A DNA stretch of 64,000 bases from Glaesserella australis. GTDB taxonomy: Bacteria; Pseudomonadota; Gammaproteobacteria; Enterobacterales; Pasteurellaceae. Positions 46,796-48,215 of this stretch are shown piece after piece. The number at the start of each line of letters is the position of its first letter. Position 1 is the stretch's first letter. The notes under the pieces were generated by a model. That model was not told the origin of the DNA, did no database searches, and saw only the letters and a program-made list of their open reading frames with translations. Made by a program: the position numbers and the translations under genes. The stretch covers positions 1 to 64,000 of the forward strand of contig NZ_PTPX01000020.1 of assembly GCF_003260095.1 (NCBI RefSeq), read 5' to 3'.

Positions 46796-46850
46796 TTTTT
46801 AATCTCAATTCTGTTGCTTTATAAAGCAAAGGGGTATATATTCGCCTAAG

Positions 46851-46946
46851 TACGCTATGTGTCGCAGGAAATCTTGGAAACTGCTAAACGAAGGCTATTG
46901 GAGCTGGGAAACATTCGTGGGGACACCGAGTCCCACCCATAGCGTA
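46851..46946 (-). ncRNA. Candidate structured RNA between F and G
   Basis: A 9-bp outer stem TACGCTATG/CATAGCGTA closes a 96-nt segment with three inner stems: GTGGGAC/GTCCCCAC, ACGAA/TTCGT and GCAG/CTGC. It starts at the base after the F stop codon and is followed downstream by a 16-bp palindrome (46814-46829) and then gene G. No frame is open through it. Transcription would be leftward in the late operon, but the fold works on either strand. I do not recognise the family. Confidence 0.6.
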
Positions 46947-48215
46947 TTAATCCATTCTAAAGGATTGCATATATATCTCTTTAAATTCTTCTAAAACCTT
47001 AATCACCGCCATATAACGCCGACCATTAATTGTCTTATACAATTCAAAATGTTTGCCTTTTTTACTCTTAATCTCTTCAGGTGAATGTAAAATTTCAGGT
47101 AATAAATTATATTCTTCTACACCAAATTGACCTTCACGATGAGCAATTTGTTTTATCAATGAATCGTCAGATAGCCAAACAGTTTTTAATTCTGTACCTA
47201 ATACTGCTCTTGTTTCAGCGGTTAATACTCCAGCTGCAAATTTAAAATTCTGCTCTAGACCGTCTCTTAAGCGTTGCAAATAAGCTTCTCGTTCCGTTCT
47301 ATTAAGAGCTTTATACTCAGACAATACAGGTTTAATTTGCTTTTCTAATCGATTAAAAGCCTGCCTAAACTCTCCCCCCACCATCTCCGCTTTCGCAAAC
47401 TGATGTGCCAACTTTTCAGGGTACAAATCCAAATTTGGCTTATAACTCAAACGCCCCACATTATAGTCAAAACCTTTATCAGCGACTCGCACAGTACCAT
47501 CAGGTAGTTTAAAACCAATGGTTTCTTCTTGATTACCTAATTTATCTTTCGGGCGTTTAGCTTTTACTAACAACGCTTCACTAGAGCCTACCTGTTCAAT
47601 GCCTTTCCGTTTTAAATCACGCTCACTTAACGCAATCACCGTACAACGACAATTAAAACCATTTGGCGGATAAAATGTCGCCCAAAACGGATCGTCATAA
47701 CGATAAATTTTCCCATTTAACGCTTGATGTGCAGGGCGAGTACGTTTATCACCCACAGCGGAATACTGCCAATATGGTCGATTATCCACATTATCCATAT
47801 ACCGCTGATAGCGAGCTGCAGAATATGCCTGTTGCATATTCGTGCGATAAATCGTATTTAAACGACGGGGTGTACCAAAATGTTCACCCGTTTTCGGATC
47901 AGCCAATAATTTACCATCAACACCACGACTAATCGCTTTATCGTGACCATAAACCCAGCCTTTCCGCTCTAAGTCGTCCACAAGCGTTTTTTTCCACGCG
48001 TTAAATGATTTACCTTCACGCCGAGCCTTTTCCATTGAACCATAAATATCACGAGTAATATCCAACTCCGTCAATTTGCTGATTGTCACCGCACGAGCCA
48101 ACGCACTGTCATACAACTCTTTTTTAAACACCTTTGAAGCCAATAACTTCTTTTGGTGTAAATACTCAATCGCCGCTTTTGGTTCAAGCCCTAGCAGAAA
48201 ACTAGCCTTCGGCAT
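46947..48215 (-). CDS. Head morphogenesis protein F (Mu gp30-like) with PBECR-type C-terminus
   Basis: 422 residues. The F domain (about 1-210) has TIYRTNMQQAYSAARYQRYM, GDKRTRPAHQALNGKIY and FYPPNGFNCRCTVIAL. The C-terminal region (about 340-422) has QFGVEEYNLLPEILHSPEEI, then FELYKTINGRRYMAVIKV and EIYMQSFR. This resembles the phage Barnase-EndoU-ColicinE5/D-RelE-like nuclease domains seen on some Mu F proteins. It overlaps the portal gene by 14 bp. The nuclease reading is by pattern, not by search. Confidence 0.85.
   Translation of the reverse strand: MPKASFLLGLEPKAAIEYLHQKKLLASKVFKKELYDSALARAVTISKLTELDITRDIYGSMEKARREGKSFNAWKKTLVDDLERKGWVYGHDKAISRGVDGKLLADPKTGEHFGTPRRLNTIYRTNMQQAYSAARYQRYMDNVDNRPYWQYSAVGDKRTRPAHQALNGKIYRYDDPFWATFYPPNGFNCRCTVIALSERDLKRKGIEQVGSSEALLVKAKRPKDKLGNQEETIGFKLPDGTVRVADKGFDYNVGRLSYKPNLDLYPEKLAHQFAKAEMVGGEFRQAFNRLEKQIKPVLSEYKALNRTEREAYLQRLRDGLEQNFKFAAGVLTAETRAVLGTELKTVWLSDDSLIKQIAHREGQFGVEEYNLLPEILHSPEEIKSKKGKHFELYKTINGRRYMAVIKVLEEFKEIYMQSFRMD

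Follow-up and report, generated by a model that had tools for sequence, protein, structure and literature searches.

The nuclease domains found at the C-termini of MuF phage head proteins, PBECR and MuF-C, were described by Iyer et al. 2017 (PMC5512222), and MuF proteins were treated by Jamet et al. 2017 (PMC5576092) as polymorphic toxins of temperate phages whose C-terminal toxin can be exchanged, displaced toxin remnants being found nearby. Immunity proteins were proposed in the latter work; as far as the accessible text of the two papers goes, the former does not mention an RNA partner and the latter does not mention RNA. Exactly the same domain, in the same kind of protein, is encoded by gene F of a Mu-like prophage in the 64,000-nucleotide (nt) stretch of Glaesserella australis DNA analysed here (contig NZ_PTPX01000020.1, positions 1 to 64,000; the window). 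No immunity protein is encoded in the gap between F and the next late gene, G, which at most loci is 95–150 nt long and accommodates just an RNA and its promoter. In the window this RNA is tRNA-shaped and is located on the plus strand, antisense to both late genes. Comparative sequence analysis suggests that it is quite probably an immunity factor (antitoxin) for a virion-borne polymorphic ribonuclease (RNase) toxin. RNA immunity to a polymorphic toxin was not found in the literature searched, whose coverage was incomplete, so that an earlier description may exist.

As regards the RNA, the closest described systems are the type III toxin–antitoxin systems (ToxIN, AbiQ, CptIN, TenpIN, and the related phage case AbiF/RCd22), in which a structured, pseudoknotted RNA lies beside an RNase and sequesters the toxin protein by binding to it (PMC4147584, PMC12373285). 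The pseudoknot is found here as well, in the form of a loop–loop helix with covariation. However, the type III antitoxin consists of tandem short repeats and lies upstream of the toxin gene in one operon, with a terminator between them, whereas the window RNA is a single non-repeated unit located downstream, on the opposite strand and behind its own promoter, and the toxin is a domain of a PBECR-family phage head protein. Since neither the repeats nor the operon order are found, the system is not classed as type III. Type I systems act by complementarity to the toxin mRNA; here the overlap with F is little or none, and it is the structure that is conserved.

Structure and conservation of the RNA

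The structured segment abuts the F stop codon and spans 96 nt, exactly as stated in an earlier note made from the sequence of the window alone. It is closed by a 9-bp outer stem, P1 (TACGCTATG/CATAGCGTA; a 12-nt inverted repeat, 92%). Of the four stems listed in that note, P1 and the GCAG/CTGC and GTGGGG/TCCCAC hairpins (P2 and P4) stand; ACGAA/TTCGT is also present, but it and the last hairpin cannot both form fully, because two bases are shared. The kissing interaction between the P2 and P4 loops (CTTGG/CCGAG) had been overlooked. The fold energy (−29.7 kcal/mol, z −1.76; matched by 9 of 200 shuffles) is modest and by itself a mild argument, so it is the comparative evidence that makes the RNA more than a chance fold.

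Close copies of a 131-nt query are found in two relatives only, at 93% (L005) and 76% (L006), each directly behind an F gene with a PBECR3 end. In most F relatives the gap contains an RNA of similar fold, encoded opposite to F. The layout of this group, called class A, is P1, AAAA or a short joiner, the P2 hairpin, a variable middle, the P4 hairpin, and the second strand of P1, which in many homologues overlaps the final F codons. A MAFFT alignment misplaced P1 in the short-joiner members, and the structure was therefore scored by segments and a covariance model was built from 19 uniform members, the window group being excluded. The P1 and gap lengths of L163, L185, and L196 were read by eye, the automatic P1 and reading-frame-based values being false.

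In the alignment of the 19 uniform members, 99.1% of cells are paired and 12 pairs are changed on both sides; eight of the nine P1 pairs show such double changes. Their covariation score was reached by none of 500 shuffles and was lost when the partners were slid. Over 43 members, at least five Watson–Crick pairs are formed by 28 of the 32 distinct loop pairs (shuffled mean 8.7, maximum 18), and in the 38 distinct P1 helices 95% of positions are paired, compared with 63% when the 3′ strands are shuffled. The loop partners covary through CTCGA/TCGAG, CTCGG/CCGAG, CTCCC/GGGAG, CTGCC/GGCAG, and CTTCC/GGAAG. The compensatory changes on which the earlier note had staked its structure thus occur in both P1 and the pseudoknot.

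With the filters off, the best match of the covariance model in a 601-bp region coincides exactly with 46851–46946 on the plus strand (17.4 bits, E 1.5e-4); with default filters over the whole 64 kb the window RNA is not detected, which places it in a divergent branch. Rfam, named in the earlier note as a check, has no family for it at the gathering threshold and nothing for the class A gaps at E up to 10, ARAGORN gave no match, and a PADLOC run gave no hit. As a DNA query the RNA had no match among plasmids and no useful match among phages. No internal repeats were found in it, each locus having one unit.

Scanning the PBECR3 alignment against 84,980 species genomes revealed 32 F-PBECR3 loci, in Pasteurellaceae, Neisseria, Bergeriella, Aquitalea, Chitinibacter, Cupriavidus, Pseudogulbenkiania, Zhongshania, and others, beta-proteobacteria included. 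All 32 have a class A RNA antisense at the F stop, 31 of them with a model hit. The RNA of L275 was identified by eye (P1 GTTCTGCG/CGCAGAAC, loop pairing CTCGC/GCGAG), as was that of F in L245, where the model hit represents a second RNA. Model hits at L238, L241, and L242 were discarded, as they look like chance or decay. In another phage lineage (L150, genome G136), a gene for MuF-PBECR3 is followed by an antisense segment of unrelated sequence (AAGCCACA...TGTGGCTT), perhaps a third RNA class.

Promoter of the RNA

A sigma70-like promoter, TTGCTT-N17-TATATT, precedes the RNA on its own strand. Its score is reached by 93% of 73 homologous upstream regions and by 38% of shuffles, the recurrent form in homologues being typically TTGATT-N17-TATATT with its −10 box 5–8 nt ahead of P1. 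In most class A homologues the −10 box lies 4–8 nt from the RNA, so that transcription would start near the first P1 base. A simple promoter scan omits the window promoter (8 of 12 matches, under the cut-off). The 16-bp palindrome noted earlier before G (TTGCTTTATAAAGCAA, 46814–46829) includes the −35 box, and its palindromic character is not conserved; its interpretation as a terminator or operator was dropped.

Class B RNAs and the putative catalytic histidine

In genes for Mu-like F proteins with a MuF_C-type C-terminal domain, the stop codon is likewise followed by an antisense RNA. These RNAs, called class B, are overtly tRNA-like, with a 7-bp acceptor, a D-loop with GG, and a T-arm such as GTGGGTTCAACTCCCAC; the Rfam tRNA model (RF00005) scores above gathering at 8 of 14 loci and ARAGORN calls three as tRNAs. 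They are not ordinary tRNAs, since in place of the anticodon arm they usually have a hairpin whose length varies, and most central hairpins lack a 7-nt anticodon loop. RNAalifold recovers the T-arm alone, because the length of the central arm varies. Compared with tRNA, class A retains the closing stem and the D- and T-arm-like hairpins joined at their loops; the anticodon arm is missing or replaced and the loop contact is a kissing helix of 5–6 bp. In Escherichia coli prophages the class B element, located between F and G and antisense to them, bears in some cases the label 'tRNA-OTHER' of the Prokaryotic Genome Annotation Pipeline, and it is present in ca. 3% of complete E. coli genomes (159 of 5,426). 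At L182, L156, L160, and L163, unlike in class A, a terminator-like hairpin lies between the class B RNA and the F stop.

Occurrence of the RNA follows the putative catalytic residue of the nuclease. When MuF_C-type domains were aligned and clustered at 90% identity, 30 clusters had the putative catalytic His and 10 did not. A strict automatic pattern found the RNA in 23 of the former and none of the latter (Fisher 2.3e-5), and reading by eye revealed a tRNA-like RNA in all 30. The clusters lacking His include Mu, D108, and MP42, in which, as in others, F and G abut or overlap and no RNA is present; there is neither a gap nor an RNA in L192, where His is changed to Gln. The Mu domain is described as an inactive PBECR in the accessible part of Iyer et al. 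2017 (PMC5512222).

In a PBECR domain the first helix is expected to carry a catalytic His or Arg, and one of the late strands Ser/Thr. The PBECR3 type has an invariant Ser, and Lys-Gln in place of His; its alignment shows invariant TVWLSD..KQ, R, K, and S residues. The AlphaFold model of the window domain has a pLDDT (predicted local distance difference test) of 88.9, and both domain types were modelled confidently.

Exchange of toxin–RNA cassettes and RNAs without a toxin

Capsid domains 95–97% identical can be paired with toxin domains just 37–46% identical. The similarity of the RNA tracks the toxin domain, with a partial r of 0.46 (permutation p 5e-4), and does not track the capsid domain, for which the value is −0.05. 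At L065/L245 the current RNA is followed by a truncated toxin remnant and by another RNA. Two RNAs each are found at L264 and L308, and the chromosomal array L236 comprises three units, two of which are degenerate; the tandem copies are whole separate genes. An intact RNA persists beside a frameshifted toxin (L276, L306), a mostly lost one (L305), or where the toxin is absent (L304). In E. coli O157:H7, at Z1826 (L278:1298–2574), an IS3 element separates F from an intact tRNA-like RNA, labelled 'tRNA-OTHER'. Locus L303 is a solitary chromosomal RNA beside suhB, scoring 97 bits, with no phage gene near; in genome G050 the solitary RNA recurs on a second contig, as a nearly identical copy of the chromosomal locus.

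Another Mu-like prophage in the genome of the window (G000:C11:53782–55191, L092) carries an F-PBECR3 gene and a different RNA of class A, and one host can hold two toxin/RNA pairs.

Function of the RNA

Comparison of the loci reveals an RNA that is conserved, promoter-driven, tRNA-shaped, tied to an active-looking nuclease domain, exchanged together with it, and kept after toxin loss. It thereby behaves as would be expected of the immunity gene of a polymorphic toxin, with RNA replacing the protein. By analogy with type III antitoxins, it may act by binding the putative RNase. In the mechanism proposed, host sigma70 RNA polymerase would transcribe the RNA both in lysogens and in the course of lytic growth. 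The transcript would mimic the body of a tRNA (the closing stem and the elbow of the D- and T-arms), mostly without a usable anticodon loop, and would bind the nuclease domain and block it, most simply as a substrate mimic. Protection would thus extend to the producing cell while F accumulates and to lysogens into which related phages inject their F, whereas in cells devoid of the RNA, tRNA or other RNA would be cleaved. Solitary chromosomal RNAs would represent captured immunity genes.

Several observations weigh against this function. PBECR3-type F proteins have Lys-Gln at the position of the catalytic His of other BECR enzymes, which makes their activity only putative. A Foldseek search of the PBECR3 and MuF_C models against the PDB gave nothing significant, RelE/HigB toxins being among the weak hits only. 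Pairing of toxin and RNA is not strictly allele-specific, since at L088 an L048-like toxin domain lies beside an L042-type RNA. No obvious terminator was found for the class A RNAs, and 7 of the 30 His clusters count as RNA-bearing by eye only.

The earlier note was wrong as to strand and function, and of its three proposals, a processed small RNA, a cis-acting element for G, and an RNA for packaging, only a small RNA agrees with the findings. Cis action on G is unlikely, because the folded strand runs antisense to G, is served by a promoter of its own, and is retained without F, G, or the phage (L303, L304, L236). The packaging proposal is a poor fit, the head genes being shared by Mu, D108, MP42, and others that have no RNA. 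In its broader form it envisages an RNA that attaches to the F C-terminal domain, whether as cargo or as a structural partner, enters the head, is injected, and plays a role in assembly or early infection; this is an unlikely explanation, even if the strongest of the alternatives. F is a head protein, the MuF protein of SuMu was detected in virions by mass spectrometry (PMC3447690), and the presence of the RNA tracks the C-terminal domain; yet heads of Mu, D108, and MP42 assemble without the RNA, its strand is antisense to the late transcript, and the solitary and tandem RNAs outside phages (L303, L236) would be left unexplained.

Slightly less probable still is a cis-antisense regulator, pairing with F or G mRNA or interfering through its transcription in the manner of a type I antitoxin. 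The RNA does lie opposite to F and G, and transcripts not terminated would enter F in the antisense direction. However, its conserved part overlaps F by merely 0 to ca. 20 nt, the compensatory changes in P1 and the pseudoknot reveal selection on shape and not on complementarity, and the RNAs remain where F is gone (L303, L304). A replacement tRNA, compensating for tRNAs cut by host or phage nucleases, is very improbable, as, despite the matches of class B to the tRNA model and the three ARAGORN calls, the anticodon arm is absent from class A, the central hairpins of class B are mostly without a 7-nt anticodon loop and vary freely in length, no CCA end occurs among the RNAs inspected, and a general tRNA supply would not disappear along with the catalytic His of F.

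If the RNA is an antitoxin, a partner would be found for the enigmatic nuclease domain at the C-terminus of Mu-like F proteins, the lack of both an active domain and an RNA in Mu would be explained, and the role of injected MuF toxins would become testable. A tRNA-mimic family would be added in Pasteurellaceae, Neisseriaceae, and, with class B, E. coli, and the RNAs may indicate the natural target of the toxins. On balance, though with less assurance than for the antitoxin function itself, the loci seem to represent a new class of toxin–immunity system. Temperate phages would carry RNase toxins on a head protein, with immunity provided by a tRNA-shaped, substrate-mimicking RNA; the cassettes would spread, RNA arrays would arise, and single RNAs would be captured by bacteria against incoming phages.

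Features of the window and minor observations

Table 1. Location of the RNA, its promoter, and the adjacent late genes in the window
Feature	Position	Strand	Basis
tRNA-shaped structured RNA (class A), 96 nt	46851..46946	+	fold, segment scoring, covariance-model match, homologues
P1 5′ strand (acceptor-like closing stem, 9 bp; partner 46938-46946)	46851..46859	+	helix statistics in homologues
P1 3′ strand, abutting the F stop codon (46947-46949)	46938..46946	+	position
P2, D-arm-like hairpin GCAG/CTGC, 13-nt loop	46864..46884	+	segment scoring
Pseudoknot 5′ side, CTTGG in P2 loop (partner 46926-46930)	46873..46877	+	segment scoring, covariation
P4, T-arm-like hairpin GTGGGG/TCCCAC	46917..46936	+	segment scoring
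Pseudoknot 3′ side, CCGAG in P4 loop	46926..46930	+	segment scoring, covariation
−35 hexamer TTGCTT, within 16-bp palindrome 46814-46829	46814..46819	+	best sigma70-type match upstream of the RNA
−10 hexamer TATATT, 8 nt ahead of the RNA	46837..46842	+	same sigma70-type match
Gene F, MuF minor head protein with C-terminal nuclease domain, 422 amino acids	46947..48215	-	Pfam Phage_Mu_F E 2.3e-29, PBECR3 E 8.6e-13, both above cut-off
PBECR3 domain, residues 325-420, putative RNase toxin	46956..47243	-	Pfam PBECR3 48.6 bits (cut-off 30)
Gene G, next late gene, Phage_tail_S, 138 amino acids	46379..46795	-	Pfam

PBECR3 domains also occur in very large polyvalent proteins (L147 and L148, open frames of 1986 and 1818 amino acids). 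About 2 kb upstream of F of the second G. australis prophage, a match to sRNA-Xcc1 (Rfam RF02221, 73.6 bits) is located at L092:1049–1134 on the minus strand. A CRISPR array with CRISPR-DR34 repeats (L164:12–1164) is located next to one of the Mu-like prophages that carry a class B RNA.
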